A DNA stretch of 31,713 bases from Bordetella parapertussis. Lineage in GTDB: Bacteria; Pseudomonadota; Gammaproteobacteria; Burkholderiales; Burkholderiaceae_C. The notes below the pieces were generated by a model, which was not told where the DNA came from, ran no database searches, and was given only the letters and a program-made list of their open reading frames with translations. Position 1 is the first letter of the stretch, and each line of letters begins with the position of its first letter. Shown here piece after piece: positions 8,368 to 23,560 of this stretch. A program made the position numbers and the translations under genes. The stretch spans positions 1 to 31,713 of the forward strand of contig CAMBSK010000030.1 in NCBI GenBank assembly GCA_945870575.1, in the 5' to 3' direction.

Positions 8368-8477
8368 GGGCTTTACTGTAACGATTTTGAGAATAAGTGA
8401 TTAGCTTTGGGTTGCGCTTGTCATGGACTGTTCATTTATCCAGTGTGGAATCAGCGGTCTGTCTACAATCTCAAACC

Positions 8478-10445
8478 ATGGTAACCAAACAATCTGAATA
8501 TTCCGAAGGTTCGATACGTGTCCTCAAAGGGCTCGAACCGGTCAAACAGCGCCCGGGCATGTACACCCGAACCGACAACCCGCTGCACATCATCCAGGAA
8601 GTCATAGACAACGCTGCCGATGAAGCGCTGGCCGGTCACGGCAAAAAAATCACCGTCACGCTGTTCGCCGATGGCTCTATCGGCATTGACGATGACGGGC
8701 GCGGCATTCCGTTCGGCATGCACCCCGAAGAAAAAGCCCCGGTCATCGAGTTGGTGTTCACCCGTTTGCACGCCGGTGGCAAGTTTGACAAAGGCAGCGG
8801 CGGCGCCTACAGCTTCTCCGGCGGCTTGCACGGCGTGGGTGTCAGCGTCACCAATGCGCTGTCCAAACGCATGGAAGTCACCTCTTACCGCGAAGGACAG
8901 GCGGCGCATCTGGTGTTTCAGGGCGGAGACGTCACTGACAAACTGAAACTGCGCAAAGCCGAAAGCGGTGACCGCAAACAGGGTACGTTTGTGCGCGTCT
9001 GGCCGGATGCCAAATATTTCGAATCATCTGCTTTGCCTTTGAATGAACTGGTGCATTTGTTGCGCAGCAAAGCGGTGCTGATGCCGGGCGTCAGTGTCAC
9101 GCTGGTGCAGGAAAAAGCCAAAGAAACACAGACCTGGTTGTACAAAGGCGGTTTGCGTGATTACCTCATGCAGACTTTGCACGCCGATCCGTTCATACCG
9201 CTATTTGACGGCGAAGGTTTCGCTGACGGCGGTCATGAAAGTTTTGCCGAAGGTGAGGGCGCGCAATGGTGTTTGGCATTTACCGAAGACGGTGCGCCAG
9301 TGCGCGAAAGCTATGTCAATTTGATTCCCACCAGCGCGGGCGGTACGCACGAAAGCGGCTTGCGAGACGGTTTGTTCAACGCGGTGAAAAGCTTTATCGA
9401 TTTGCACGCTTTGCTACCCAAGGGTGTCAAGCTGTTGCCCGAAGACGTGTTTGCACGCGCCAGTTTTGTACTGAGTGCCAAGGTGCTGGACCCGCAGTTT
9501 CAAGGGCAAATCAAAGAGCGTCTCAATTCACGCGACGCGGTGCGTTTGGTGTCGAGCTTTGTGCGTCCGGCCCTAGACCTGTGGTTGAACCAGCATGTGG
9601 ACTACGGCAAAAAACTCGCCGAGTTGGTGATTCGTGCGGCGCAGTTGCGCCAAAAAGCCGGTCAAAAAGTGGAAAAGCGCAAAGGCTCGGGTGTGGCCGT
9701 GTTGCCGGGCAAACTCACCGATTGCGAAAGCCGCGATCTGGCGCACAACGAGATTTTTCTGGTTGAAGGTGACAGCGCGGGGGGCAGCGCCAAGATGGGC
9801 CGCGACAAAGAATCGCAAGCCATTCTCCCCTTGCGCGGCAAAGTGCTCAACACCTGGGAGGTCGAGCGCGACCGCTTGTTCGCCAACAACGAGGTGCACG
9901 ACATCGCTGTGGCCATCGGTGTGGACCCGCACGGCCCGAACGACACGCCTGATTTATCCGGATTGCGCTACGGCAAGGTGTGCATATTGAGCGACGCTGA
10001 TGTGGACGGCTCGCACATTCAAGTGTTGCTGCTGACGCTGTTCTTTCGCCATTTCCCCAAGCTGATTGAAACCGGCCATGTGTTTGTGGCGCGCCCGCCA
10101 TTGTTTCGGGTGGACATTCCTGCGCGCGGCAAAAAACCGGCGGCCAAGGTGTATGCCTTGGACGAAGGCGAGCTCACTGCCATATTGGACAAAAGCGCCA
10201 AAGACGGCGTGCCGCGTGAGAAATGCAGCATCAGCCGCTTCAAAGGCTTGGGCGAAATGAACGCCGAGCAGTTGTGGGACACCACCTTAAACCCGGATAC
10301 GCGTCGCTTGTTGCCGGTGCAACTCGGTATTTTGGATTTCGCGCAAACCGAAGGCATGATCACCCAATTGATGGGCAAAGGCGAGGCTGCGGCGCGGCGT
10401 GAATTGATGGAGTTGCATGGCGACTCGATTGAAATTGATGTTTGA
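8478..10445 (+). CDS. parE: DNA topoisomerase IV subunit B
   Basis: 655 residues. The GHKL ATPase part is clear (IDNAADEALAGHGKK with the N-box Asn, DDGRGIPFGMHPEE, and YSFSGGLHGVGVSVTNALS), followed by the transducer and the TOPRIM domain with EGDSAGGSAKMGRDK, PLRGK and DADVDGSHI. The C-terminus SRFKGLGEMNAEQLWDTT is characteristic. The length and the absence of the long GyrB TOPRIM insertion favour ParE over GyrB; the parC gene further along the same strand agrees. The ATG at 8478 (MVTKQSEYSEGSIRVLKGL) is chosen because the frame upstream does not resemble the family. A TACAAT -10-like hexamer sits at 8464-8469. parE and parC normally lie close together; here 10.7 kb separates them. Confidence 0.95.
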   Translation: MVTKQSEYSEGSIRVLKGLEPVKQRPGMYTRTDNPLHIIQEVIDNAADEALAGHGKKITVTLFADGSIGIDDDGRGIPFGMHPEEKAPVIELVFTRLHAGGKFDKGSGGAYSFSGGLHGVGVSVTNALSKRMEVTSYREGQAAHLVFQGGDVTDKLKLRKAESGDRKQGTFVRVWPDAKYFESSALPLNELVHLLRSKAVLMPGVSVTLVQEKAKETQTWLYKGGLRDYLMQTLHADPFIPLFDGEGFADGGHESFAEGEGAQWCLAFTEDGAPVRESYVNLIPTSAGGTHESGLRDGLFNAVKSFIDLHALLPKGVKLLPEDVFARASFVLSAKVLDPQFQGQIKERLNSRDAVRLVSSFVRPALDLWLNQHVDYGKKLAELVIRAAQLRQKAGQKVEKRKGSGVAVLPGKLTDCESRDLAHNEIFLVEGDSAGGSAKMGRDKESQAILPLRGKVLNTWEVERDRLFANNEVHDIAVAIGVDPHGPNDTPDLSGLRYGKVCILSDADVDGSHIQVLLLTLFFRHFPKLIETGHVFVARPPLFRVDIPARGKKPAAKVYALDEGELTAILDKSAKDGVPREKCSISRFKGLGEMNAEQLWDTTLNPDTRRLLPVQLGILDFAQTEGMITQLMGKGEAAARRELMELHGDSIEIDV

Positions 10446-10507
10446 GGGAATTGAATTAATGTTTTAATATTACGAATATCATCAATTGAATATTTTTTTA
10501 TAAAGCC
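10446..10507 (+). other. AT-rich junction between parE and the R-M island
   Basis: 62 bp, strongly AT-rich against neighbours of moderate to high GC. It contains two direct copies of AATTGAAT (10449-10456 and 10484-10491) with the inverted repeat ATATT-ACG-AATAT (10467-10479) between them. TTGAAT at 10451-10456 and GAATAT at 10474-10479 are 17 bp apart and could be a weak promoter for hsdR. No target-site duplication matching the 27 bp before parC is evident. Confidence 0.4.
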
Positions 10508-13387
10508 ATGCCCTCAAACACGTTTCCATCTGATCTTGCTTCAAAGGTTACAAGACACACTGTTAAGGAAGAACAGATCGAATATGGTTTTATCGACAAG
10601 TTGCAAGGGCTTAAGTACGTTTACCGGGAAGATATTCGCGACCGTGCAGCGCTGGAGCAGAACTTTCGCGAAAAATTTGAAAACCTCAACCGAGTCAATT
10701 TGTCCAAAGGCGAATTCAAACGCCTGCTAGACGAGATAGTCACCCCAGACGTTTTTACAGCAGCCCGCCGCTTGCGCGAGCGCAGTGCTTTTACCCGCGA
10801 CGACGGTACGCCTCTTAACTACACTTTGGTCAACATCAAAGACTGGTGCAAAAACACTTTTGAGGTGGTTAACCAACTGCGAATCAATACTGATTACAGC
10901 CACCACCGCTATGACGTGCTCATACTTATCAATGGAGTGCCCTGCGTTCAAGTTGAACTCAAGACGCTGGGCATCAACCCCAAGCGTGCGATGGAGCAAA
11001 TCGTTGACTACAAAAATGATCCAGGTAATGGTTACAGCAAAACTCTATTGTGCTTCTTGCAGTTATTCATCGTCAGCAACCGCACCAGCACCTATTACTT
11101 CGCAAACAATAACACGCGGCACATTGCGTTCAACGCCGACGAGCGTTTCTTACCCATCTACCAGTTTGCCGACGATGCCAACACCAAGATCAACCACCTA
11201 GACGACTTTGCCGAGCAGTTCTTGCCCAAATGCACCCTGGGTCAAACCATCAGCCGCTACATGGTGCTGGTAGCCAGTGAGCAAAAGTTGCTCATGATGC
11301 GGCCCTATCAGGTGTATGCCGTCAAGGCCATCGTGGACTGCATTCGCGATAACTCTGGCAACGGCTACATCTGGCACACCACGGGCAGTGGCAAAACGCT
11401 TACCTCGTTCAAAGCCTCTACGTTGCTCAAAGACAACCCCGACATTGAAAAATGCCTCTTTGTGGTCGACCGCAAAGACCTCGACCGCCAAACCCGTGAA
11501 GAGTTCAACCGCTTTCAGGAAAACTGCGTTGAAGAAAACACCAACACCGCCAGTTTGGTGCGCCGCCTGCTGTCTGACGACTACGCTGATAAAGTCATCG
11601 TCACCACCATCCAAAAGCTGGGATTGGCGCTCGACGAAAACAGCAAGCGCAACCAGCAACGCAGCAAAAGCGGCCAAGCCACCTACAAAGAACAGCTCGC
11701 GCCGCTCCAAGACAAACGCATTGTTTTTATCTTTGACGAATGCCACCGCTCGCAGTTTGGCGAGAACCACAAAGCCATCAAAGCTTTCTTTCCTAAGGCT
11801 CAGTTGTTTGGCTTTACCGGCACGCCCATTTTTGAAGACAACGCCAGCCGCACCCAGATTGAAGACGAGCAAGCCAGCCTGCGCACCACCGAAGATATTT
11901 TTCAAAAGCAGCTACACGCTTACACCATCACCCACGCCATTGAGTACCACGCACTGTTTAAAGCAGCACAAGCGGCCAATCACGCCGCTAACCCCAGCTT
12001 TGTTCCGCTGAACATAGCCTGCGTGTTCTCGCCGCCCGCCGAGGGCAACGCCGATGTGCAGCAAATTCAAGAAGACTTGCCGCAAGAGAAGCTTGATAAC
12101 CAGGTGGACCCCGATAGCAAAAAGGCCGCCCTCAAAACCATACTGGTCGACTACAACACGCGATTCGGCACCAACCACAGCTTGAGCGAGTTCGATCTTT
12201 ATTACCAAGACGTACAAAAGCGCATCAAAGACCAGCAGTGGCCTAACGCTGACTACCCAGCCGTAAAGAAGATTGACATCACCATCGTGGTGGACATGCT
12301 GCTGACCGGCTTTGACAGCAAATACCTCAACACCTTGTATGTGGACAAAAACCTCAAGCACCATGGCTTGATACAAGCGTTCTCCCGTACCAACCGTATC
12401 TTGAACGGTACCAAGCCCTACGGCAACATACTCGACTTTCGTTCACAAAAAGACGCGGTCGATGCCGCCATTGCTTTGTTCTCTGGCGAGAAGAGCGAAG
12501 AAAAGGCCCGTGAAATTTGGTTGGTAGACAAAGCCCCCTTCGTTATTGAGAAGCTTCAAGGCGCGGTGCAGCGCCTAGAAGACTTCATGCAAACCCAAGG
12601 CCTGCCATGCACGCCCGAGGCTGTGCCTCAGCTTAAAGGTGACGATGCGCGTGCTGCTTTTATTGGCCACTTCAAAGAAGTGCAGCGCCTCAAAACCCAG
12701 CTGGACCAATACACCGACCTCACCCCGGGCGACGCCGCCGCCATCGAGCACATCTTGCCCAGCGAAGTTCAGCAAGGTTTTAGGGGTGCATATATCGAAA
12801 CTGCGCAGCGCCTCAAAGCGCTGCAAGAAAAATCGGGCAAAGACGAAGGCAGCACCATCACAGGCGAGGTAGACCAGCTCGACTTTGAGTTTGTGTTGTT
12901 TGCCAGCGCTGTCATTGACTACGATTACATCGTAGGCCTGATGTCGCGCTTTTCTAGCCAAGCGCCGGGCAAGCAGAAGATGAGCCGCGAAGAACTGATT
13001 GGCCTCATCAGCGCCGACGCCAAGTTCATGAACGAGCGCGACGACATTGCCGCCTACATTGCAACCCTCAGGGTGGGCGAGGGCTTGAGCGAAGCCTCTA
13101 TCCGCGACGGCTACACCCACTTCAAAAAAGTAAAAGACAGAGCCGAACTGAGCGCTATAGCCACCCAACACGGTTTGACCGCCGCCGCATTGCAAGCCTT
13201 TGTGGACAACACCTTGCAGCGTTTGATTTTGGACGCGGATGCCTTGACAGACCTGATGTCCCCGCTTGACTTGAGCTGGAAAGCCCGCGCCCAAGCCGAG
13301 ACCGCGTTGATGAAAGAGCTGGCGCCTTTGCTGACTAAACGCGCCCAAGGACGTGAGATTTCTGGATTGAGCGCGTATGAGCACTGA
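10508..13387 (+). CDS. hsdR: Type I restriction enzyme, motor/nuclease subunit HsdR
   Basis: 959 residues, the expected length. The N-terminal nuclease has the PD-(D/E)XK core YDVLILINGVPCVQVELK (Asp136, Glu150, Lys152). The SF2 translocase follows with Walker A TTGSGKT (291-297), motif Ia VVDRKDLDRQT, motif Ic VTTIQK, the DEAD-type box DECH (410-413), motif III FTGTP (436-440), then LLTGFDSKYLNTLYVDK and motif VI QAFSRTNRI. With HsdS and HsdM it makes the R2M2S complex that translocates and cuts unmodified DNA. It is the first gene of the island, whereas many type I loci have hsdM or hsdS upstream of hsdR. The ribosome binding site before the ATG at 10508 is poor. Its 3' end overlaps the DUF1016 gene by 11 bp. 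Confidence 0.96.
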   Translation: MPSNTFPSDLASKVTRHTVKEEQIEYGFIDKLQGLKYVYREDIRDRAALEQNFREKFENLNRVNLSKGEFKRLLDEIVTPDVFTAARRLRERSAFTRDDGTPLNYTLVNIKDWCKNTFEVVNQLRINTDYSHHRYDVLILINGVPCVQVELKTLGINPKRAMEQIVDYKNDPGNGYSKTLLCFLQLFIVSNRTSTYYFANNNTRHIAFNADERFLPIYQFADDANTKINHLDDFAEQFLPKCTLGQTISRYMVLVASEQKLLMMRPYQVYAVKAIVDCIRDNSGNGYIWHTTGSGKTLTSFKASTLLKDNPDIEKCLFVVDRKDLDRQTREEFNRFQENCVEENTNTASLVRRLLSDDYADKVIVTTIQKLGLALDENSKRNQQRSKSGQATYKEQLAPLQDKRIVFIFDECHRSQFGENHKAIKAFFPKAQLFGFTGTPIFEDNASRTQIEDEQASLRTTEDIFQKQLHAYTITHAIEYHALFKAAQAANHAANPSFVPLNIACVFSPPAEGNADVQQIQEDLPQEKLDNQVDPDSKKAALKTILVDYNTRFGTNHSLSEFDLYYQDVQKRIKDQQWPNADYPAVKKIDITIVVDMLLTGFDSKYLNTLYVDKNLKHHGLIQAFSRTNRILNGTKPYGNILDFRSQKDAVDAAIALFSGEKSEEKAREIWLVDKAPFVIEKLQGAVQRLEDFMQTQGLPCTPEAVPQLKGDDARAAFIGHFKEVQRLKTQLDQYTDLTPGDAAAIEHILPSEVQQGFRGAYIETAQRLKALQEKSGKDEGSTITGEVDQLDFEFVLFASAVIDYDYIVGLMSRFSSQAPGKQKMSREELIGLISADAKFMNERDDIAAYIATLRVGEGLSEASIRDGYTHFKKVKDRAELSAIATQHGLTAAALQAFVDNTLQRLILDADALTDLMSPLDLSWKARAQAETALMKELAPLLTKRAQGREISGLSAYEH

Positions 13388-14534
13388 CAAGCAAACAACG
13401 ACGGCCGTGAACACATCCTCAAGCCCGGATGCAACAGCGGGGCGTTTTGATGGGCTGGTATCGGCCATCGTCGATATTCATCGCCAGTCGCAGACCTTTG
13501 CAAGCAAGGCCGTCAACACCAGCCTAACCGTGCGCAACTGGCTGATTGGTCACCGCATTGTCGAGTTTGAGCAACACGGAAAGGACCGAGCGGCCTATGG
13601 TGAAAAACTCTTGCCCGCTTTGGCGCAGCGCCTCGCGGCGGCCGGTCTCAAGCGGGTGGATGCCCGTGAATTGCGCCGCTTCAGGCTTTTCTACAGCGTG
13701 TATCCGCAGATTCGGGAGACGCTGTCTCCCGAATGGCTGATGAGTCCTCAGGCTGCAGCGACGGTACCTGAGCAGCCCGCACCCCCACAGCCCAAAGGGG
13801 AGGCAGCGTCTCCCACTTTGATCCACCACCTCTCCTTCTCGCACTTGGCCGAGTTGTTGGATCTGCCTAACAACACCCAGCGCCGCTTCTACGAAGTCGA
13901 ATGCATGCGCGGTAATTGGTCGGTGCGCGAACTGCGCCGCCAGATCGACAGCCTGTATTACCAGCGTAGCGGGCTGTCCAAAGACAAAGCACAGCTGTCC
14001 ACTAAGATCAACACGGCGGCAGAAACGCTGCAACCTTCGCACATCATCCGCGACCCCTACGTCTTCGAATTTCTCGGCCTGCGCTCGCGCGATGTCATGG
14101 CCGAATCAGATTTGGAAGATGCCTTGCTCGACCGCCTTCAAGACTTTCTGCTGGAGTTGGGCCACGGCTTCTGCTTCGAAGCCCGGCAAAAGCGCATTCT
14201 CATCGGCGATGAACATTTTTTCATCGACCTCGTTTTCTACCACCGCATCCTCAAGTGCCACATACTGGTCGAGCTCAAAACCGACGCCTTCCGCCACGAA
14301 CACCTGGGCCAGCTCAACACCTACGTCGCCTATTACAAAAAACACCAGATGACACCGGGCGACCAGCCGCCCATTGGCATCCTGCTTTGCACGCGCAAGA
14401 ACGATGCACTCGTCGAGTTTGCCTTGGGCGACCTGAACAAGCAGGTTTTCGTCTCTCGCTACGCTGTGGAGTTGCCCCGAAAGGAAGAGATGGAGCACTT
14501 CATCACCCAAATCAACCGGGAGGTCGGCCCGTGA
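13377..14534 (+). CDS. DUF1016/YhcG-family protein with PD-(D/E)XK nuclease domain
   Basis: 385 residues. The N-terminal half (about 25-200) is the DUF1016_N region: LTVRNWLIGHRIVEFEQHG, YGEKLLPALAQRL, then FYEVECMRGNWSVRELRRQI and SLYYQRSGLSKDK. The C-terminal half (about 225-375) is the YhcG restriction-like fold: DPYVFEFLGL, then the active-site pattern FFIDLVFYHRILKCHILVEL with Asp284, Glu299 and Lys301, followed by GQLNTYVAYY. All catalytic residues are present, so it may cut DNA, but no activity is known for close relatives as far as I can say. A Pro/Gln/Ala-rich linker with two short runs lies at 120-145. It overlaps hsdR by 11 bp and the next gene by GTGA, so it is made with the R-M enzymes. 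Confidence 0.88.
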   Translation: MSTDKQTTTAVNTSSSPDATAGRFDGLVSAIVDIHRQSQTFASKAVNTSLTVRNWLIGHRIVEFEQHGKDRAAYGEKLLPALAQRLAAAGLKRVDARELRRFRLFYSVYPQIRETLSPEWLMSPQAAATVPEQPAPPQPKGEAASPTLIHHLSFSHLAELLDLPNNTQRRFYEVECMRGNWSVRELRRQIDSLYYQRSGLSKDKAQLSTKINTAAETLQPSHIIRDPYVFEFLGLRSRDVMAESDLEDALLDRLQDFLLELGHGFCFEARQKRILIGDEHFFIDLVFYHRILKCHILVELKTDAFRHEHLGQLNTYVAYYKKHQMTPGDQPPIGILLCTRKNDALVEFALGDLNKQVFVSRYAVELPRKEEMEHFITQINREVGP

Positions 14535-15133
14535 AAAACGCCATCGTCCACAACGACTACAGCCGCGAAGCGCCGCCCAAGTTTGAAATCTTTGCCGACC
14601 GCATCGAAATCACCTCGGCCTGCGCCTTGCCCGAAGGCTTGACCCCCGCCGAGTTTTTTGAGGGCTACTCCATCCCCCGCAACAAAGAGCTCATGCGCGT
14701 CTTTCGCGACCTAGAGCTGGTAGAGCACCTTGGCTCGGGCCTGCCCCGCATCACCGAGTTTTATGGGCCAGAGTGCTTTCGCTTCACCGAAAACTTTTTG
14801 CGCATCACCTTTGCGGCCAGTGGGCCGGTGCATGAGGAAGAGGCGACCCCGCAAGTCGAGGCCCCAGTCGAGGCCCCAGTCGAGGCCCCAGTCGAGGCCC
14901 CAGTCGCATTGACGGATACCGACCATAAAATTTTGAGCGCGCTCGCTGCCCAGCCACTGGGCCGCAGCCCCTTGCTCAGCGAACTCGGCTATAGCCAACC
15001 TACAGGCAACTACAAAGCTGCCATGACCAAGCTGCTGCAAACTCGGCTGATCGAACCCACCATCCCCGACAAACCCAACAGCCGCTTGCAGCAATACCGC
15101 CTGACCGCACAAGGAAGGGCCTTGTTGAAATGA
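14531..15133 (+). CDS. N-terminally truncated HATPase_c_4/winged-helix regulator (COG2865-like)
   Basis: 200 residues starting with GTG at 14531, overlapping the DUF1016 stop as GTGA. Residues 1-90 are the HATPase_c_4 module of proteins that normally begin with a Schlafen AlbA_2 domain: NAIVHNDYS (3-11), FEIFADRIEI, LPEGLTPAEFFEGYSIPRN and EHLGSGLPRI. The whole AlbA_2 half is missing, and the start falls inside the ATPase N-box: the usual Glu of the REALVNA-type motif is lost while the Asn remains, so ATP binding is doubtful. Next is a VEAP linker repeated four times (109-124), then a winged helix (DTDHKILSALAAQPLG to the C-terminus). It may be a DNA-binding remnant, a real short protein, or a decayed gene kept for coupling. 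Confidence 0.72.
   Translation: MKNAIVHNDYSREAPPKFEIFADRIEITSACALPEGLTPAEFFEGYSIPRNKELMRVFRDLELVEHLGSGLPRITEFYGPECFRFTENFLRITFAASGPVHEEEATPQVEAPVEAPVEAPVEAPVALTDTDHKILSALAAQPLGRSPLLSELGYSQPTGNYKAAMTKLLQTRLIEPTIPDKPNSRLQQYRLTAQGRALLK
14855..14902 (+). repeat. 12-bp in-frame tandem repeat, four copies
   Basis: Four exact copies of GTCGAGGCCCCA, each encoding Val-Glu-Ala-Pro, between the ATPase and winged-helix parts of the truncated regulator. A fifth copy starts (GTCG) and then diverges. The unit is a multiple of three, so slippage would change linker length without a frameshift. Confidence 0.95.
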
Positions 15134-15486
15134 ACCTGCCGACAAAGCAAGCGACTGCGCCAGACGCTGCCCCGTACCAAGATTTGCTCCAGACGCTGGC
15201 TGCCGCAGCCGTAACGCTGCAGATACTGCATCACCGGGCCGTTGAGGCGTTGGCGCCTACTGTCCAAGAGATATTGCGCAGCGGCAGCCGGGATGCGCAA
15301 CGGATCGAACACACGCTCGATCAACTGCTGAACCATGCTTGCACGCCCGAGGGTCTGATTCTTTTCAAAACCCTCTGCCGACACTACTGGGCAATCGACC
15401 CGCAAGCCACCGCGAGCTATGTCCACGCCTACCGCGAGATGTGGGATGACGATGACCAGAGCGCCACCGAAGAGGTGCAAGCATGA
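15130..15486 (+). CDS. Hypothetical 118-residue helical protein of the R-M island
   Basis: I do not recognise a family. The protein looks all-helical and soluble: a long amphipathic segment (PYQDLLQTLAAAAVTLQILHHRAVEAL, about 15-41), then EILRSGSRDAQRIEHTLDQLLNHA, and a C-terminal HYWAIDPQATASYVHAYREMW followed by an acidic tail. There is no signal peptide or membrane segment. It starts with ATG overlapping the previous stop (ATGA, 15130-15133) and its own stop overlaps the KilA-N start in the same way, so it is a real, coupled gene. Its place between a regulator remnant and a KilA-N protein suggests a small partner of one of these. That is inference. Confidence 0.7.
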   Translation: MNLPTKQATAPDAAPYQDLLQTLAAAAVTLQILHHRAVEALAPTVQEILRSGSRDAQRIEHTLDQLLNHACTPEGLILFKTLCRHYWAIDPQATASYVHAYREMWDDDDQSATEEVQA

Positions 15487-16313
15487 ATCGCAAAACAGCC
15501 AAGACCAGCACGCTGGATATCCAAGGCACCAGCGTGGCCGTGGTGTCCTCGCCCCAAGGCGACTACATCTCGCTCACCGACATGCTGCGCGCCAAGGATG
15601 GTGACTTCTTCATCTCAGATTGGCTACGCAACCGCAATACGGTAGAGTTTTTGGGCATTTGGGAGTCCATTTATAACCCCGCTTTTAATTACGGCGAATT
15701 CGCCACAATTAAAAGCCAGGCCGGGCTCAACAGCTACAAGATCAGCGTCAAAGAGTGGGTCGAAAAAACGGGTGCCATCGGACTCAAGGCCACCGCAGGC
15801 CGCTATGGCGGCACTTACGCTCACCCCGACATTGCCTTTGAATTTGGCATGTGGATCAGCCCAGAGTTCAAGATCTATTTGGTCAAAGAGTTCCGCCGCC
15901 TCAAAGACGAAGAAAGCAATCGCCTCCAGCTGGGCTGGAACCTGCAGCGCACACTCTCCAAAATCAACTACCGCATCCACACCGACGCCATCAAAGAGAC
16001 GCTGATTCCGCCCGCTGTCAGCAAAGCCCAGGCCAGCCAGGTTTACGCCAGCGAAGCCGACCTGCTGAACGTGGCCCTCTTTGGCCACACCGCCAAACAA
16101 TGGCAAGACGTCCACCCCGACGCACAAGGCAATCAGCGCGACAACGCCACGCTGGAGCAGTTGGTGGTGCTCACCAACCTAGAAAGCCTCAACGCGGTCT
16201 TCATCCGCCAAGGCCTGCCCGCGCCCGAGCGCCTGCACAAGCTCAACGAGATTGCCATCTCGCAAATGCGCAGCTTGCTTTCGGACCACCACATCAAGAG
16301 GCTGGCACCGTGA
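15483..16313 (+). CDS. KilA-N domain-containing protein
   Basis: 276 residues. The KilA-N DNA-binding module, common in phage and mobile-element proteins, covers about residues 10-125: ISLTDMLRAKDGDFFISDWLRNRNTVEFLGIWE, VKEWVEKTGAIGLKATAGRYGGTYAHPDIAFEFGMWISPEFKIYLVKEF. The latter half (about 140-276) is helical, with QVYASEADLLNVALFGHTAKQW and a final HKLNEIAISQMRSLLSDHH. Similar two-part KilA-N proteins occur beside hsd genes and RhuM in other bacteria; their function is not known. A role as regulator or as phage-sensing component is possible. It is coupled on both sides: ATGA with the preceding gene and GTGA (16310-16313) with hsdS. Confidence 0.88.
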   Translation: MNRKTAKTSTLDIQGTSVAVVSSPQGDYISLTDMLRAKDGDFFISDWLRNRNTVEFLGIWESIYNPAFNYGEFATIKSQAGLNSYKISVKEWVEKTGAIGLKATAGRYGGTYAHPDIAFEFGMWISPEFKIYLVKEFRRLKDEESNRLQLGWNLQRTLSKINYRIHTDAIKETLIPPAVSKAQASQVYASEADLLNVALFGHTAKQWQDVHPDAQGNQRDNATLEQLVVLTNLESLNAVFIRQGLPAPERLHKLNEIAISQMRSLLSDHHIKRLAP

Positions 16314-17551
16314 GCGAACAACAAAAAAGGCTGGTGCCTAAGCTGCGGTTTCCGGAGTTTCGGGGGCTTCAGAGTTGGCAACCGCGTAAGCTGAGTGACG
16401 CGTGCGAAGTAAATCCATCTAGCCCGGTACTTCCAGAACAGTTTGTTTACATTGATCTGGAGTCAGTCGAAGCTGGAAAGCTGATAACGAAGAAGATTGT
16501 CAAAAAAAATGAGGCCCCAAGCAGAGCCCAGAGGGTTTTGCATGTCGGTGATGTAATTTTTCAGATGGTTCGGCCTTACCAGCGCAATAACCTCTTTTTC
16601 GAAGAAAACGACGATTCAAGCTATGTTGCATCGACTGGATATGCGCAGTTAAGAGCAAAGGAGTCACCTGAATTTCTGTTTCAAGCAATTCATGTTGACG
16701 ACTTTGTTAATCGAGTAATTGCGAAGTGCACTGGTTCCAGCTATCCCGCCATCAACTCTTCAGACTTGGCAGAAATGCTCCTCGTTGTTCCGTCATCTGA
16801 TGAACAACAAAAACTCGCCGACTGTCTGAGTTCACTGGACGAACTGATCGCCGCCCAAGCCCGCAAAGTCGAAGCCCTCAAAACCCACAAAAAAGGACTG
16901 ATGCAGCAACTCTTTCCCCGCGAAGGCGAAACCCAACCGCGGCTGCGGTTTCCTGCGTTTCGCGGGGATTGGGAGGTAAGAAAGCTTGGCACCGTGTGCG
17001 ATATTCAACGGGGTAAGTTCTCGTACCGTCCCCGCAATGATCCGAAGTTTTTTGGAGGCCAATATCCCTTTATTCAAACTGGCGATGTTGTGAAATCAAA
17101 CGGCGGGGCGGTTATTGCAAGTCAGTCTTTAAACGAGGAAGGCTTGTCAGTCAGCAAGCTATTCAAACCGACGATTGTGTTGATTACTATCGCTGCAAAT
17201 ATTGGAGATACAGGACTGCTTGATATGGAGGGATGTTTTTCAGACAGCGTGGTTGGGCTGATTTCGAATAAACACGTCATATCCGTCTTTCTCGAACTCA
17301 TCATGCGAGGCCAAAAGGAATATCTAAATAAAGTTGCAACGACAGGAGCGCAGAAAAATATCAACAACGAAATTCTTCGGGTAGTTGATATCCAGTTACC
17401 CAGCGTGTCGGAGCAACACCGCATCGCCGACTGCCTCACCTCCCTCGACGCCCTCATCACCGCCGCCACCGAAGAACTAGACACCATCAAGACCCATAAA
17501 AAGGGTTTGATGCAGCAGCTTTTCCCCTCGGCAGAGGCGCTTGAGGCATGA
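16310..17551 (+). CDS. hsdS: Type I restriction-modification specificity subunit HsdS
   Basis: 413 residues with the classic two-half layout. Target recognition domain 1 spans about 15-160, followed by conserved region 1 (DEQQKLADCLSSLDELIA to KTHKKGLMQQLFP, 164-203). TRD2 spans about 210-365, and the second conserved helix region (366-406) repeats the same SLDALI and KTHKKGLMQQLFP pattern. Each TRD reads one half of a bipartite target; the sequence read cannot be deduced here. The GTG start at 16310 overlaps the KilA-N stop (GTGA) and begins MSEQQKRLVPKLRFPEF, the usual HsdS start. A longer frame upstream is an overlap with the KilA-N gene. The TRD parts are visibly AT-richer than the rest of the island, as is usual for horizontally shuffled TRDs. 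Confidence 0.95.
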   Translation: MSEQQKRLVPKLRFPEFRGLQSWQPRKLSDACEVNPSSPVLPEQFVYIDLESVEAGKLITKKIVKKNEAPSRAQRVLHVGDVIFQMVRPYQRNNLFFEENDDSSYVASTGYAQLRAKESPEFLFQAIHVDDFVNRVIAKCTGSSYPAINSSDLAEMLLVVPSSDEQQKLADCLSSLDELIAAQARKVEALKTHKKGLMQQLFPREGETQPRLRFPAFRGDWEVRKLGTVCDIQRGKFSYRPRNDPKFFGGQYPFIQTGDVVKSNGGAVIASQSLNEEGLSVSKLFKPTIVLITIAANIGDTGLLDMEGCFSDSVVGLISNKHVISVFLELIMRGQKEYLNKVATTGAQKNINNEILRVVDIQLPSVSEQHRIADCLTSLDALITAATEELDTIKTHKKGLMQQLFPSAEALEA

Positions 17552-18558
17552 GCGCTCTCATTCTCTACACGACCGATGACGGCAAGAGCCAGATCAAGCT
17601 GCGCGCTAAAGATCAAACCGTCTGGCTGTCGCAACGGGAAATGGCCGAATTGTTCGACGTCAGCACGGACAACGTGGGCTTGCACCTCAAGAACATCTAT
17701 GAGGACGGGGAACTGACCCGAGAGGCAACTACCGAGGAATCCTCGGTAGTTCAAACCGAGGGTACTCGGCAGGTGCAGCGGCCAGTGACGTTCTACAACC
17801 TCGACGCCATTCTCGCGGTCGGCTACCGGGTGCGCTCGCCCCGTGGCGTACAGTTCCGCCGCTGGGCCAGCACAGTGCTCAAGGAGTTCCTGACCAAGGG
17901 CTTTGTGATGGACGACGAGCGGTTGAAGAACCCAGATGGTCGCCCAGACTACTTTGACGAGATGCTGGCCCGCATCCGCGACATTCGGGCCTCGGAAAAG
18001 CGCTTTTATCAAAAGGTGCGCGACCTGTTTGCTTTGAGCAGCGACTACGACAAAACCGACCAGACCACACAACATTTTTTTGCGGCAGTGCAAAACACCT
18101 TACTGTATGCGGTGACGCAAAAGACCACAGCGGAACTGATCACTGACCGAGCCAACGCGAGTGACCCCCATTTTGGTCTAAAGCATTGGACAGGCTCGCA
18201 GGTACGCAAACAAGATATTCTGGTCGCCAAGAATTATTTGACCGAAGACGAGATTGACACCCTAAACCGGTTGGTGGTGATCTTTTTAGAAACTGCGGAG
18301 CTGCGCACCAAGAACCGCCAAGAAATTCGCATGGCCTTTTGGCAGCAAAACGTGGAGCAGATCATCAGCTCCAACGGCTTCACGGTACTTACCCATGTGG
18401 GCAAGGTTAGCCACGCTCGCATGGAGCAGCAGATCGAGTCCTTGTTCTTGGACTTTGACCAGCGCCGCAAACAACAAGAGGCCGCAAGTGCCGACAGCCA
18501 AGACGAGGCCGAGTTAAAAGCGCTGGAAAATACCTTGAAGAAACGGGTCAAACCATGA
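17548..18558 (+). CDS. RhuM-family protein, first of two tandem paralogues
   Basis: 336 residues of the Virulence_RhuM family. Residues 1-70 hold an N-terminal strand pair and a helix-turn-helix-like segment (VWLSQREMAELFDVSTDNVGLHLKNIYEDGEL), then FYNLDAILAVGYRVRSPRGVQFRRWA (about 89-114) and the signature DERLKNPDGRPDYFDEML-RIRDIRASEKRFYQKVRDLFALS. The family name comes from a Salmonella pathogenicity-island gene. A Fic/Doc-like or DNA-binding regulator role has been suggested for relatives, but the activity is not established. The ATGA overlap with hsdS (17548-17551) and with the second copy indicates coupled translation. It is clearly a divergent paralogue of the following gene. Confidence 0.88.
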   Translation: MSALILYTTDDGKSQIKLRAKDQTVWLSQREMAELFDVSTDNVGLHLKNIYEDGELTREATTEESSVVQTEGTRQVQRPVTFYNLDAILAVGYRVRSPRGVQFRRWASTVLKEFLTKGFVMDDERLKNPDGRPDYFDEMLARIRDIRASEKRFYQKVRDLFALSSDYDKTDQTTQHFFAAVQNTLLYAVTQKTTAELITDRANASDPHFGLKHWTGSQVRKQDILVAKNYLTEDEIDTLNRLVVIFLETAELRTKNRQEIRMAFWQQNVEQIISSNGFTVLTHVGKVSHARMEQQIESLFLDFDQRRKQQEAASADSQDEAELKALENTLKKRVKP

Positions 18559-19574
18559 CGGACAGCAATGCATCGCAATTTGTCATTTACCAAAGCGAAG
18601 ACGGAAAAATCAAGCTGGATGTGCGTTTTGTAGATGAAACCATCTGGCTAACCCAGCAGCAAATGGCAGAGCTGTTTCACACCTCACGTACCAATGTGGT
18701 GGAGCACATTGCCCATATTTATGAGGAAGGTGAGTTGGAGACGGCGGCAACCAGTCGGGAATTCCGACAGGTTCGCACAGAGGGCAAACGAGAGGTTGCT
18801 CGCAACATGACCTTTTACAACCTGGACATGACTTTGTCGGTTGGGTACCGGGTGAAAAGTGCAGTGGCTACGCGGTTTCGCATCTGGGCCACCCAGCAGC
18901 TGCGCGAGTATATTGTTAAAGGATTCTTGCTCAACGACGAGCGACTGAAAAACCCAGACCAACCTTTTGATTATTTTGAAGAGCTAACGCGGCGCATTCA
19001 AGATATCCGTACCAGCGAGCGGCGCTTTTATCAAAAGATCACTGATATTTACGCCACCAGCGTTGACTACGACCCCACGCAAGCAGAAAGCATTTCGTTT
19101 TTCCAGACCGTACAAAACAAGATGCATTGGGCCATTACAGGGCAAACGGCTGCAGAGATCATTCACAGCCGTGCCGATAAAAATCAGCCTCATATGGGAC
19201 TGACAAATTGGCGCGGCAGTAAGGTGCGCAAGGCCGATGTGAGTATTGCCAAAAACTACCTCAATACCGATGAATTGGCAGCGCTCAACAATTTGGTTGA
19301 GCAGTATTTGGTATTTGCCGAAGGTCAGGCCATGCGACGGGTGCCCATGACGATGAGTGACTGGATTACCAAACTGCATGGCTTTCTGACAATCAATGAC
19401 CGTGACATCTTGAAACATGCAGGAAAAATATCGCACGAGGTGGCCAAGTCTTTCGCTGAGCTGCAGTTTGAAACCTTCCACAAGGCGCAGATTGCTCAAG
19501 CTGATAAATTGGGGAGTGATTTTGACCGAGCGATGAAGCTGCTACCGAAGCCAGAAAAACAGAAGAAAAAATGA
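18555..19574 (+). CDS. RhuM-family protein, second of two tandem paralogues
   Basis: 339 residues with the same domain order as the preceding gene: IWLTQQQMAELFHTSRTNVVEHIAHIYEEGEL, FYNLDMTLSVGYRVKSAVATRFRIWATQQLREY, then DERLKNPDQPFDYFEELTRRIQDIRTSERRFYQKITDIYATS. Shared blocks are easily aligned by eye, yet the two copies differ at roughly half of the positions, so this is an old duplication or two separate acquisitions. The C-terminal third differs most: a GQAMRRVPMTMSDWITKLHGFL segment here against the KNRQEIRMAFWQQNVEQII segment of copy one. It overlaps both neighbours by ATGA and directly precedes hsdM. Confidence 0.88.
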   Translation: MTDSNASQFVIYQSEDGKIKLDVRFVDETIWLTQQQMAELFHTSRTNVVEHIAHIYEEGELETAATSREFRQVRTEGKREVARNMTFYNLDMTLSVGYRVKSAVATRFRIWATQQLREYIVKGFLLNDERLKNPDQPFDYFEELTRRIQDIRTSERRFYQKITDIYATSVDYDPTQAESISFFQTVQNKMHWAITGQTAAEIIHSRADKNQPHMGLTNWRGSKVRKADVSIAKNYLNTDELAALNNLVEQYLVFAEGQAMRRVPMTMSDWITKLHGFLTINDRDILKHAGKISHEVAKSFAELQFETFHKAQIAQADKLGSDFDRAMKLLPKPEKQKKK

Positions 19575-21178
19575 CCGAACAAAACCAAAAACAACTGGGC
19601 AAAACGCTGTGGGCCATTGCCGACCAGCTGCGCGGCTCCATGGACGCAGACGATTTTCGCGACTACATGCTGTCGTTCCTCTTCTTGCGTTATCTGTCGG
19701 ACAACTACGAATTAGCAGCCCAAAAAGAGCTGGGTGCTGATTACCCCAAGGTAGACGCTGAGGCCAAGCAAGTGCCGCTGGCCGTTTGGTATGCCGCTAA
19801 CGTAGCGGATGTACCCGCGTTTGAAAAGCAAATGCGCCGCAAGGTGCATTACGCCGTCCAGCCTGCGCACTTGTGGAGCAGCGTAGCCCAAATGGCCCGC
19901 ATACAAGACGGCGAGCTGCTGAACACCTTGCAAGCTGGGTTCAAGTACATCGAAAACGAATCTTTTGAAAGCACGTTTGCCGGGCTGTTCTCCGAGATTG
20001 ATCTGGGCTCTTCCAAGTTGGGCAAAGGCTACAGCGAGCGCAATGCCGTGCTGTGCACCGTGATTCAAAAAATTGCCGAGGGCTTGGCCGATTTTTCGAC
20101 CGATATTGACGCGCTGGGCGACGCCTATGAATACTTGATTGGTCAGTTCGCTGCAGGCTCGGGCAAGAAGGCGGGCGAGTTTTATACGCCGCAGCAAATT
20201 TCGGACATCTTGTCCACCATCGTCACGCTGGACAGCCAAGAGCCCAAAACAGGCGCGAAGCAGCGGCTAGAGAGTGAGATGGACTTTGCCTGCGGCTCGG
20301 GCTCGCTGTTGCTGAACGTGCGCAAGCGCATGGGACCGCATGGCATTGGCAAGATTTACGGCCAAGAGAAAAACATCACCACCTACAACTTGGCACGCAT
20401 GAACATGCTGCTGCATGGGGTGAAGGACACCGAATTTGAAATCTTCCATGGCGACACACTGACCAACGAATGGGACAAACTGCGCGAGTTGAACCCGGCA
20501 AAAAAGCCCGCGTTTGACGCTATCGTGGCCAACCCACCGTTCAGTTTGCGCTGGGACGCCAGCGAGGCCATGGCCGACGATGTGCGGTTTAAAAACCATG
20601 GCTTGGCACCTAAGTCGGCAGCAGACTTTGCGTTCTTGTTACACGGGTTTCACTTCCTCAAAGACGAGGGTGTGATGGCCATCATCTTGCCGCACGGTGT
20701 TTTATTCCGTGGCGGCGTTGAAGAGCGCATTCGCAAAAAGCTGCTGCTGGATGGGCACATCGACACCGTGATTGGTTTGCCATCGAACCTTTTTTATTCA
20801 ACCGGCATTCCTGTGTGTATTTTGGTGCTCAAAAAATGCAAGAAACCAGATGACGTGTTGTTCATCAACGCGGCAGAGCATTTTGAAAAGGGTAAGCGGC
20901 AAAACCAATTGACGCAGGCGCACATTGATAAGATTGTGAAAACCTACCAATTCCGAGAGGAAGAGGCGCGTTATTCACGCCGTGTGGACATGGTCGAGAT
21001 TGAGAAAAACGATTTCAATTTGAATATCTCTCGCTACATCAGCACTGCAGTGGCTGAAGAACAAATCAATTTGAATGAAGTCAATGAAATATTACACGCT
21101 ATCGAAAAAGATATTGTTGCTGCTAAGGCAAAGCACAACCAATTTTTGAAAGAACTCGGTTTACCGTTGCTGCCTTGA
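19571..21178 (+). CDS. hsdM: Type I restriction-modification methyltransferase subunit HsdM
   Basis: 535 residues, typical of N6-adenine methyltransferases of type I systems. HsdM_N covers about 8-145 (GKTLWAIADQLRGSMDADDFRDYM). The catalytic domain shows GEFYTPQQIS (202-211), SAM-binding motif I MDFACGSGSLLLNV (237-250) and catalytic motif IV NPPF (321-324). With HsdS it methylates the host target and assembles the restriction complex with HsdR. It starts with ATG overlapping the RhuM stop (19571-19574). Being the last of nine genes is unusual: a distal methyltransferase would be made last in a new host. Its stop is 27 bp before parC, and no terminator hairpin is seen there. Confidence 0.96.
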   Translation: MTEQNQKQLGKTLWAIADQLRGSMDADDFRDYMLSFLFLRYLSDNYELAAQKELGADYPKVDAEAKQVPLAVWYAANVADVPAFEKQMRRKVHYAVQPAHLWSSVAQMARIQDGELLNTLQAGFKYIENESFESTFAGLFSEIDLGSSKLGKGYSERNAVLCTVIQKIAEGLADFSTDIDALGDAYEYLIGQFAAGSGKKAGEFYTPQQISDILSTIVTLDSQEPKTGAKQRLESEMDFACGSGSLLLNVRKRMGPHGIGKIYGQEKNITTYNLARMNMLLHGVKDTEFEIFHGDTLTNEWDKLRELNPAKKPAFDAIVANPPFSLRWDASEAMADDVRFKNHGLAPKSAADFAFLLHGFHFLKDEGVMAIILPHGVLFRGGVEERIRKKLLLDGHIDTVIGLPSNLFYSTGIPVCILVLKKCKKPDDVLFINAAEHFEKGKRQNQLTQAHIDKIVKTYQFREEEARYSRRVDMVEIEKNDFNLNISRYISTAVAEEQINLNEVNEILHAIEKDIVAAKAKHNQFLKELGLPLLP

Positions 21179-21205
21179 ATGTAATCTCTAACCTGGTATT
21201 TTTTA

Positions 21206-23560
21206 ATGTCCTCCGATTTATTCACGCCCGATCTACCTGATGCTCAGTCCGACGACGGCATTGCCTTAGGCCATTACGCCCAACGCGCTTACCTTGAATA
21301 CGCACTCAGCGTGGTCAAAGGCCGCGCTTTGCCCGATGTCTGCGACGGCCAAAAACCGGTGCAGCGGCGCATTTTGTATTCGATGTCGCGCATGGGTTTG
21401 GGCTTTGGCGGCGCGAATGGTGCAGTGGGAGCGCGTCCGGTAAAGAGCGCGCGCGTGGTTGGTGATGTGTTGGGCCGCTATCACCCGCATGGCGACAGCG
21501 CAGCCTATGACGCACTTGTGCGCATGGCCCAGGATTTTTCTCAGCGTTATCCGCTGATCGATGGTCAAGGTAATTTTGGTTCGCGCGACGGCGACGGTGC
21601 CGCCGCCATGCGTTACACCGAGGCACGCTTGGCGCGCATCACCAGTTTGTTGCTGGATGAAATCGACGAAGGCACGGTCGACTTTCAGCCCAACTACGAC
21701 GGCTCCACCGAAGAGCCCAAACAATTACCGGCGCGTTTGCCGTTTGCATTGCTCAATGGCGCCAGTGGCATTGCGGTCGGCATGGCAACGGAAATCCCCA
21801 GCCACAATCTGCGCGAAGTGGCTGATGCATGTGTGGCCTTGATTAAAAACCCTAAGCTGTCGCACGAGGAATTGGTGCAAATCATGCCCGGGCCGGATTA
21901 CCCCGGCGGCGGTCAAATCATCAGCAGCGCGGCCGATATTTCAGATGCTTACGCCACCGGTCGCGGATCGCTCAAAGTGCGTGCGCGTTGGGTTATTGAG
22001 GACTTGGCGCGCGGTCAATGGCAATTGGTGGTCAACGAATTGCCGCCGAATGTCAGCTCGCAAAAAGTACTGGAAGAAATCGAAGAGCTGACCAACCCCA
22101 AGGTCAAGACCGGCAAAAAAGCGCTGACGCCTGAGCAAACACAATTGAAAGCGACGGTCTTGTCCGTGCTGGACGTGGTGCGCGACGAGTCTTCCAAAGA
22201 CGCGCCGGTGCGACTGGTGTTCGAGCCCAAAACCCGCACGATTGAGCAGCAAGAGCTCATCACCACCTTGCTGGCGCACACCAGTTTGGAAAGCTCGTCA
22301 TCCATCAACCTGACCATGGTCGGTTTGGACGGCAGGCCGGTGCCCAAGTCCATGCGCCAAATGCTGGAGGAGTGGATCAGCTTTCGCCAGACCACGGTGC
22401 AGCGTCGCTCGCAATTCCGCTTGGACAAAGTGCTGGCGCGTATCCATATTTTGGAAGGCCGCCAGTTGGTGTTACTCAACATCGACGAGGTGATTCGCAT
22501 CATCCGCCACAGTGACGAGCCTAAGCCTGCGTTGATAGAACGTTTCAAACTGTCAGACCGTCAAGCCGACGATATTTTGGATATCCGCTTGCGCCAATTG
22601 GCGCGATTGGAAGCTATCAAGATTGAGCAGGAATTGAAAGAGTTGCGCGAAGAGCAGGGCAAGCTCGAAGACATTTTGGGCAGCGCCACATCTTTGCGCC
22701 GTTTGATGGTCAAAGAAATCGAAGCCGATGCCAAAGTGTTTGCCGATGAGCGCCGCACTTTGATACAAGCCGAGAAAAAAGCCGTGGCCGAAGTCAAAGT
22801 GGTGGATGAAGCGGTGACCGTGGTGGTGTCTGAAAAAGGCTGGGTGCGTGCGCGCCAAGGCCATGGTCACGAGCCCGGCAGTTTTGCATTCAAAGCAGGT
22901 GACGGTTTATACGACACGTTTGAATGCCGCACCGTCGATCTGTTGATTGCTTTCGGCTCCAACGGCCGTGTGTACTCTGTGCCGGTGGCGGCATTGCCCG
23001 GTGCGCGTGGCGATGGCCAACCGGTCACCACCTTGGTGGATGTGGAATCGGGCACGCAACTGATGCATTACTTTGCCGGGCCGACGACCATGACTTTGTT
23101 GCTCAGCGGCTCGGGCGGTTATGGCTTTGTGTGTTGCATAGACAACTTGATTTCACGCAATAAGAGCGGTAAAGCCTTCATCAATTTACAGGACGGCGAA
23201 ACCCTGTGCGTACCTTCAATTGTTGGCGGTGGCAACGGCGCCGAGCCTTTGCCGATTGCCACGCACGTGGTGTGTGCGTCGGCAGGCGGGCGCATACTCA
23301 CGTTTGACATCACCGAACTCAAAGCCATGGAAAAAGGCGGTCGCGGTTTGATGCTGATGGACTTGGAAGACAAAGACACCCTGGCCGGTGCCGCCGCTTA
23401 CACAAGAAGCATTTGTATTCTGGGTGTGGGTCGCGGTGGCAAGGCCCGAGACGAAACGCTGGAAATCAGAAGCCTGAACAATGCCCGCTCAGTCCGCGCG
23501 CGCAAAGGAAAGGTGGCCGACCTGGGCTTTAAACCTACCCACGTGTTGCGAGTGCTCTGA
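21206..23560 (+). CDS. parC: DNA topoisomerase IV subunit A
   Basis: 784 residues. The N-terminal breakage-reunion domain shows [17 protein letters not shown] (41-57), the [12 protein letters not shown] block (91-102) where quinolone-resistance changes occur (Ser98 and Asp102 align with E. coli Ser80 and Glu84, both wild-type-like) and the catalytic Tyr137 in [10 protein letters not shown]. The C-terminal part has the degenerate beta-pinwheel repeats ([42 protein letters not shown]). No canonical GyrA box is seen, in line with ParC. It works with ParE to decatenate chromosomes. The region before the ATG has no good Shine-Dalgarno and no terminator after hsdM, so parC may partly depend on island transcripts. 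Confidence 0.95.

Follow-up and report, generated by a model that had tools for sequence, protein, structure and literature searches.

Overlapping accessory genes in a nine-gene type I restriction-modification operon of Bordetella parapertussis suggest slots with exchangeable occupants

Does a type I restriction-modification (R-M) operon in which every gene overlaps the next encode one system of fixed composition, or are its accessory genes joined to the R-M core in a looser way? This question is raised by a contig of Bordetella parapertussis, which we analyzed over its whole stretch of 31,713 nucleotides (here called the window). Nine chained open reading frames (ORFs), all on the forward strand, extend from position 10508 to 21178, starting with HsdR and ending with HsdM. 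Their families were assigned using Pfam, NCBIfam, and PADLOC, with PHROGs used additionally for the six accessory proteins. The locus is a type I R-M locus, as hsdR, hsdM, and hsdS all have their domains and catalytic motifs: the EcoR124-like hsdR (10508 to 13387) contains the PD-(D/E)XK, Walker A, DECH, and TGTP motifs, hsdS (16310 to 17551) encodes a specificity subunit recognized by Pfam and PADLOC, and hsdM (19571 to 21178) encodes a methyltransferase with NPPF and FxCGSG motifs. Between hsdR and hsdS (slot 1) lie genes for a DUF1016/YhcG PDDEXK nuclease (13377 to 14534; PF06250 and PDC-S02 matches, PD-(D/E)XK residues with the D and ELK motif), a fragment with HATPase_c_4 and Fic-like_C domains (14531 to 15133), a 118-amino-acid protein that we call U118 (15130 to 15486), and a KilA-N protein (15483 to 16313; PF04383 and PDC-S22 matches). 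Between hsdS and hsdM (slot 2) lie RhuM-1 (17548 to 18558) and RhuM-2 (18555 to 19574), which match PDC-S05 as well as PF13310 (362.6 and 369.6 bits, respectively; cut-off, 33.7). The PADLOC matches of the DUF1016, RhuM, and KilA-N proteins range from 1e-127 to 1e-147.

All eight junctions of the operon overlap, by 11, 4, 4, 4, 4, 4, 4, and 4 bp in gene order, and the seven 4-bp overlaps comprise five ATGA and two GTGA sequences. The ORF coordinates thus agree with a preliminary description of this DNA, in which one 11-bp overlap and seven 4-bp overlaps were reported and the accessory genes were said to be tied to the hsd genes by these overlaps. The second point was strengthened by a count in the comparison loci, where an exact 4-bp overlap was found in 54 of 606 same-strand neighbor pairs without an R-M or accessory gene, 33 of 181 pairs with one such gene, and 58 of 124 pairs with two, i.e., about five times more often at R-M/accessory junctions than at other neighbors; these are rough figures that depend on longest-ORF starts, a greedy choice of genes, and related loci whose junctions are not independent. 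The probability of seven 4-bp overlaps among eight junctions is 3e-7 at the first of these rates and only 0.023 at the last, indicating that chaining is the norm for these operons. The operon in the window is a strong case of this typical arrangement and not a singular one.

The operon separates two housekeeping genes, parE (8397 to 10445, forward strand) and parC (21206 to 23560, forward strand). The former encodes a protein with 92, 86, 85, 84, and 83% identity to ParE of genomes G006, G003, G001, G004, and G002, respectively. The two genes are adjacent in L081 (4-bp overlap) and L083 (90 bp apart), and the short available flank of L082 shows no parC. Given the adjacency in these relatives, the operon looks like an insertion into the parE-parC pair.

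The composition of related operons bears directly on the question of a fixed system. A search for HsdM in 299 family genomes gave some match in 210 and a close one (65 to 85%) in 18, of which 17 were fetched; 84 genomes from the nearest genus yielded no match at 1e-150. The assessable set upstream of hsdM consisted of 17 distinct loci with HsdM proteins 64 to 85% identical, including the second L124 copy (the first being L123); L129 (contig end), L132 and L133 (HsdM, 39 to 42%), and a fragment in G116 were left out. Across these 17 loci, one architecture is kept, R-[slot 1]-S-[slot 2]-M, and its occupants change. An accessory gene or its remnant lies directly upstream of hsdM in all 17, and this position is never held by hsdS or hsdR. 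It is occupied by RhuM in nine loci (L114, L117, L118, L120 to L123, the second L124 copy, and L130; the L117 gene is cut by the contig end, and that of the second L124 copy is broken), by a PrrC-type gene in four (L116, L119, L126, and L127), and by DUF1016 in four (L115, L125, L128, and L131). The junction between this gene and hsdM is ATGA in 16 of the 17 loci, the exception being L116. PrrC and RhuM occur together in L118 and L130, and L115 combines PrrC, a RhuM fragment, and DUF1016. Slot 1 is similarly variable. In L119, it holds DUF1016, 86% identical to that in the window and likewise overlapping hsdR by 11 bp; L116 has AlbA-HATPase there, L127 has AlbA-HATPase together with a Ppl-like gene, and L122 has AlbA-HATPase together with U118, both as open frames chained by 4 bp to each other and to hsdS. 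Open frames were also confirmed for hsdS in L119, L121, and L116, for PrrC in L116, and for the HATPase gene in L122. Genes are broken in 5 of the 17 loci, namely, L115 (RhuM fragment), L119 (hsdR), the second L124 copy (RhuM), L128 (hsdR and hsdS), and L131 (hsdR, DUF1016, and a PrrC remnant). HsdR is 71 to 81% and HsdM 64 to 84% identical among aligned clade members, and HsdS is only 29 to 40% identical to its clade counterparts. These values fit conserved HsdR and HsdM bookends around a changeable payload.

The nine-gene set of the window was found in none of the 17 assessable relatives, and KilA-N was absent from all of them. The nearest composition is that of L122, i.e., R-AlbA-HATPase-U118-S-(about 200 bp)-RhuM-2-M. 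On a tree of HsdM (21 clade rows and three outgroups; 5 of 21 inner branches starred, with bootstrap values not settled), the four slot labels need seven changes, the least possible number being three; the starred branches by themselves force at least three changes for PrrC, at least three for DUF1016, and only one for RhuM. The search for the same gene order in other genomes therefore does not bear out the proposal that the nine genes form a fixed system. The strictest form of that proposal, in which the accessory proteins serve the R-M enzyme as regulators or stoichiometric subunits in a single nine-protein complex, would explain why overlaps are chained at every junction. We regard it as very improbable in view of the set's absence from the relatives, the lack of KilA-N in all 17 loci, and the presence of RhuM and KilA-N in other loci.

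The changes in slot 2 connect the operon with a system whose mechanism has been worked out. PrrC is a latent anticodon nuclease of the ABC-HEPN type, a tRNA-cutting suicide enzyme. Its R-M enzyme keeps it inactive until the phage factor Stp sets it free (PMC3710099, PMC3506569, PMC12707154). In the clade, the slot gene of about 400 amino acids corresponds to PADLOC PrrC in the four loci tested (L115, L118, L126, and L127; 1e-126 to 1e-142), and none of the nine operon proteins in the window has a PADLOC match to PrrC. Similar arrangements exist on plasmids: among the 15 HsdM relatives listed of 497 in plasmids, 11 are accompanied by a gene annotated as an AAA family ATPase and one by an anticodon nuclease gene, and the genes from four plasmids match PADLOC PrrC at 1e-126 to 1e-132. 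Plasmids of Synechococcus elongatus and Pseudomonas sp. MPC6 have the order R-S-PrrC-M; on a Sediminicoccus rosea plasmid, the displayed region reads S-PrrC-M (hsdR is not listed), and a Methylomonas sp. LL1 plasmid has R-DUF1016-S-PrrC-(IS)-M. Judged by gene order, the RhuM pair of the window occupies the position held by PrrC in these relatives. A RhuM-like gene in R-M loci has been proposed as a toxin in multilevel defense (PMC3710099), and the location of the RhuM pair in the PrrC slot supports this proposal of RhuM as an R-M-guarded second-line effector. RhuM-1 is about 71 to 81% identical to complete or contig-cut RhuM proteins in the same slot of relatives, and RhuM-2 is 48% identical to RhuM-1 and 88% identical to RhuM of L122. 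A recent tandem duplication is ruled out by this 48% identity and by the closer relatives that each copy has elsewhere. L122 itself has a possible RhuM-1 remnant between hsdS and RhuM (14 residues only; E value, 0.007).

The slots, the exchange of their occupants, and the retained ATGA are direct observations. They suggest a reading of the type I R-M locus as a chain of slots in which the accessory proteins are interchangeable second-line effectors or sensors guarded by the R-M complex, a reading that we consider probable. The simplest form of the locus in the clade is R-S-PrrC-M, with ATGA at both the S/PrrC and the PrrC/M junctions; in the window, the RhuM pair fills the PrrC slot, and slot 1 contains four further cassettes (DUF1016, the HATPase remnant, U118, and KilA-N). 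By analogy with PrrC, the R-M complex would silence the effectors or sensors and set them free once a phage inhibits or escapes it. Ribosomes handed over across ATGA may ensure that effector and guard are made together. The preliminary description had offered regulators, subunits, or a second layer of phage defense, working in fixed proportion with the R-M complex. The second layer is the best reading, since PrrC and the accessory genes share a slot; the fixed proportion is not supported. In a tentative extension, which we put forward only as a possibility, the type I operons of this clade would serve as a guard chassis with hsdR and hsdM as bookends and hsdS plus effectors as payload; structurally unrelated effectors (the PrrC tRNase, RhuM, and the DUF1016 nuclease) would enter through the ATGA slot and respond to one trigger (i.e., R-M inhibition), with U118 acting as an adaptor or antitoxin linking DUF1016 or KilA-N to the complex.

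Several points count against the slot-chain reading: RhuM, DUF1016, and KilA-N are also encoded at sites without a recognized type I gene, the window has no PrrC of its own, the starred tree branches force a single change for RhuM, and the junctions of related loci are not independent. RhuM was found in 62 of the 299 family genomes (61 above the cut-off) and in 1 of 14 control genomes (Escherichia coli). Of 46 near-complete RhuM matches (partial matches were not counted), 21 are near a recognized type I gene, including 7 in clade loci, and 25 are away from one. Among 37 of the 78 neighbors listed at these 25 loci, four match type III methyltransferase models and four the TOTE primase domain, and others are housekeeping genes. 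Among the best 80 of 582 KilA-N genome loci, 13 have a type I gene at a distance of 6 kb or less, and a fourteenth type I-linked locus is L064, in which KilA-N is merged into a longer frame; 41 show no type I gene although each flank spans 3 kb or more, and 25 have short flanks. In favor of the slot-chain reading are the RhuM genes near type I genes and those beside type III methyltransferase and TOTE genes, and also that the same families recur in a different order in another type I clade, as M-RhuM-Fic-KilA-N-S-PrrC-DUF1016-R in L079 (Methylicorpusculum). Further mixtures of accessory families are present in L055 and L074.

If the accessory genes were found mostly apart, according to the preliminary description, they would be cargo and not one system; with 13 or 14 of the best 80 KilA-N loci and 21 of 46 RhuM matches near type I genes, the idea of one system fails. 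Plain cargo is a poor description as well, because the slot and its junction are kept while the slot gene changes. A passenger explanation would hold that defense genes gather at an R-M operon that supplies a promoter and is not easily lost, that each acts alone, and that the overlaps reflect compaction. The frequency of RhuM and KilA-N away from type I genes, the unstable composition of the clade loci, and the broken genes in 5 of 17 are all to be expected under it. It accounts less well for the fivefold enrichment of 4-bp overlaps at R-M/accessory junctions, for an accessory gene or remnant before hsdM in every assessable locus, and for the use of the same slot by PrrC, a proven guard-type partner; we consider it rather unlikely.

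Two genes of the operon are altered. Compared with relatives and EcoR124 HsdR, HsdR has lost about 62 residues in frame, between TITHAI and a following AIEYH. The deletion site is at approximately 11933 to 11946 (forward strand), at a short direct repeat of the ACGCCATYGA type, two copies of which are found in L114, at both ends of the deletion. In an alignment to EcoR124 HsdR, the gap falls after TGTP, at the start of the second RecA domain. The listed HsdR motifs are retained despite the deletion. Among 116 measurable relatives of the 120 listed, only P0241 (ENA) shares it, with a spacing of 21 residues from TITHAI to PLNIACVF (median, 83). An assembly error is unlikely given that P0241 has the deletion and differs from the HsdR of the window at two residues (related samples are possible). 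An AlphaFold model of HsdR (pLDDT, 67; pTM, 0.43) is too poor for judging the fold. The deletion probably abolishes motor activity and hence classical restriction, which would leave a methylating M-S complex plus effectors.

The HATPase gene is the 3' part of an AlbA_2-HATPase (schlafen-like regulator) gene; only the C-terminal part of the protein is encoded, and the N-terminal AlbA_2 domain is absent. The full-length relative in L116 has 488 amino acids and AlbA_2, HATPase_c_4, and Fic-like_C domains; the gene in the window is truncated at its 5' end. An array of 12-bp repeats encoding VEAP units (14855 to 14903, forward strand) differs in copy number between alleles. A 192-amino-acid allele, P0121, with the same start and two repeat units fewer is present on 13 contigs, and this shared start residue makes an annotation error unlikely. 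P0124 also begins at this residue and has a different C-terminal domain.

Decay of the locus could count against the slot-chain reading. A locus in decay, its HsdR and HATPase genes already defective and its other genes surviving only through deletions that happened to be in frame, would account for the truncated HATPase and for an HsdR deletion matched in only one measurable relative. We nevertheless find this improbable: the other seven ORFs look intact, and the chain stays in frame throughout. Another sequence that differs slightly also has the HsdR deletion, and 13 contigs bear the HATPase fragment allele, indicating that both persist in nature.

The slot-chain reading draws on parts that are already known, i.e., the components themselves, the idea of R-M-guarded toxins, and the accessory families as PADLOC candidates. 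The PADLOC S series (PDC-S) consists of single-gene candidates, of which PDC-S02, PDC-S05, and PDC-S22 are matched here by DUF1016, RhuM, and KilA-N, respectively, and U118 has no model. In EcoprrI, the gene order is M-S-PrrC-R. The operon of the window resembles EcoprrI in having extra genes embedded among EcoR124-like (type IC-like) hsd genes, and PrrC-type genes fill the S/M slot within the clade of its own HsdM; unlike EcoprrI, it lacks PrrC, has two RhuM genes in the slot, and follows the order R-S-x-M. A survey of HEPN proteins likewise places a RhuM-like gene in R-M neighborhoods (PMC3710099); the RhuM proposal made there is based on gene neighborhoods, whereas here RhuM takes the place of PrrC in one slot of a single HsdM clade without loss of the junction, in company with U118, KilA-N, and DUF1016. 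The hsdM and hsdS genes of EcoKI also overlap, by 1 nucleotide, and their translation is coupled (PMC3510504); the overlap described there joins two core subunits, whereas 4-nucleotide overlaps here chain core and accessory genes. In the open-licence PMC literature searched (preprints excluded), no description of the gene combination, the swapping of the PrrC slot, or U118 was found, and the papers searched contained no proven role for RhuM, DUF1016, or KilA-N. The replacement of slot genes with the ATGA junction kept, the combination of genes, and the U118 family are thus new. Proteins of the RhuM, DUF1016, and KilA-N families are widely distributed, and the location of RhuM and DUF1016 in the slot of PrrC yields a testable prediction of their function and trigger. 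Slot swapping also suggests how R-M operons may renew their back-up weapons.

U118 has no Pfam, NCBIfam, or PHROG family, and its only PADLOC match (PprPIWI, 0.0077) is marginal and was taken as noise. Its predicted model has four helices (pLDDT, 84), and none of 164 PDB matches in a fold search reached an E value of 0.001 or better. We found 256 related proteins. U118 was detected in 10 of the 299 family genomes (two marginally), 4 of 399 genomes of the order, and none of 369 genomes of the class; none of 32 pattern matches in viral contigs was confirmed, and the plasmids searched contained none. Of the 11 fetched contexts (L122 and L221 to L230; the weak matches L137, L219, and L220 were left out), 8 include a recognized type I gene (L122, L222 to L226, L228, and L229), L227 and L230 do not, and L221 consists of U118-KilA-N at a contig end. 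The usual order is M-DUF1016-U118-S-R (L223, L226, and L228). U118 adjoins DUF1016 in five contexts (L223, L224, L226, L228, and L229) and KilA-N in L221, L222, and the operon of the window. It thus represents a new, unnamed family of about 118 amino acids, predicted to be helical, that in most of the fetched contexts is encoded in type I loci, beside DUF1016, KilA-N, or hsdS. One U118 relative, P0043, is an apparent fusion to a KilA-N remnant.

The HATPase fragment, an operon gene (14531..15133, plus strand) that corresponds to the 3' part of an AlbA_2-HATPase gene, contains an array of 12-bp repeats (positions 14855-14903), which is two units shorter in the P0121 allele than in the window. 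The related protein P0124 shares the N-terminal half of the HATPase fragment and carries a different C-terminal domain beyond the repeat-array region, a pattern resembling what a recombination hinge at the array would produce. Five relatives of the HATPase and of U118, an unnamed 118-residue four-helix protein (i.e., P0004, P0006, P0026, P0122, and P0127), look like products of recurrent deletion; in one example among these deletion-like forms, U118 is fused behind an AlbA-type start. An 880-residue protein matching the PADLOC Ppl model, encoded between hsdR and the AlbA-HATPase gene of the related locus L127 (10063-12705), is a further occupant of the accessory-gene slot between hsdR and hsdS.

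The operon is inserted in the interval between parE and parC (10445-21206), which is possibly a preferred insertion site. A GyrB/ParE-like gene also adjoins hsdM in locus L119, and the neighbors of RhuM in other genomes include gyrase or topoisomerase domains. Some of the genes neighboring RhuM encode a TOTE primase domain or a type III methyltransferase domain. RhuM overlaps large genes by 4 bp in several loci (e.g., L170, L172, and L175) where no type I locus was recognized. Genome G021 (loci L123 and L124) carries two hsdM copies approximately 12 kb apart with identical search scores, the second of which is directly preceded by a broken RhuM gene.
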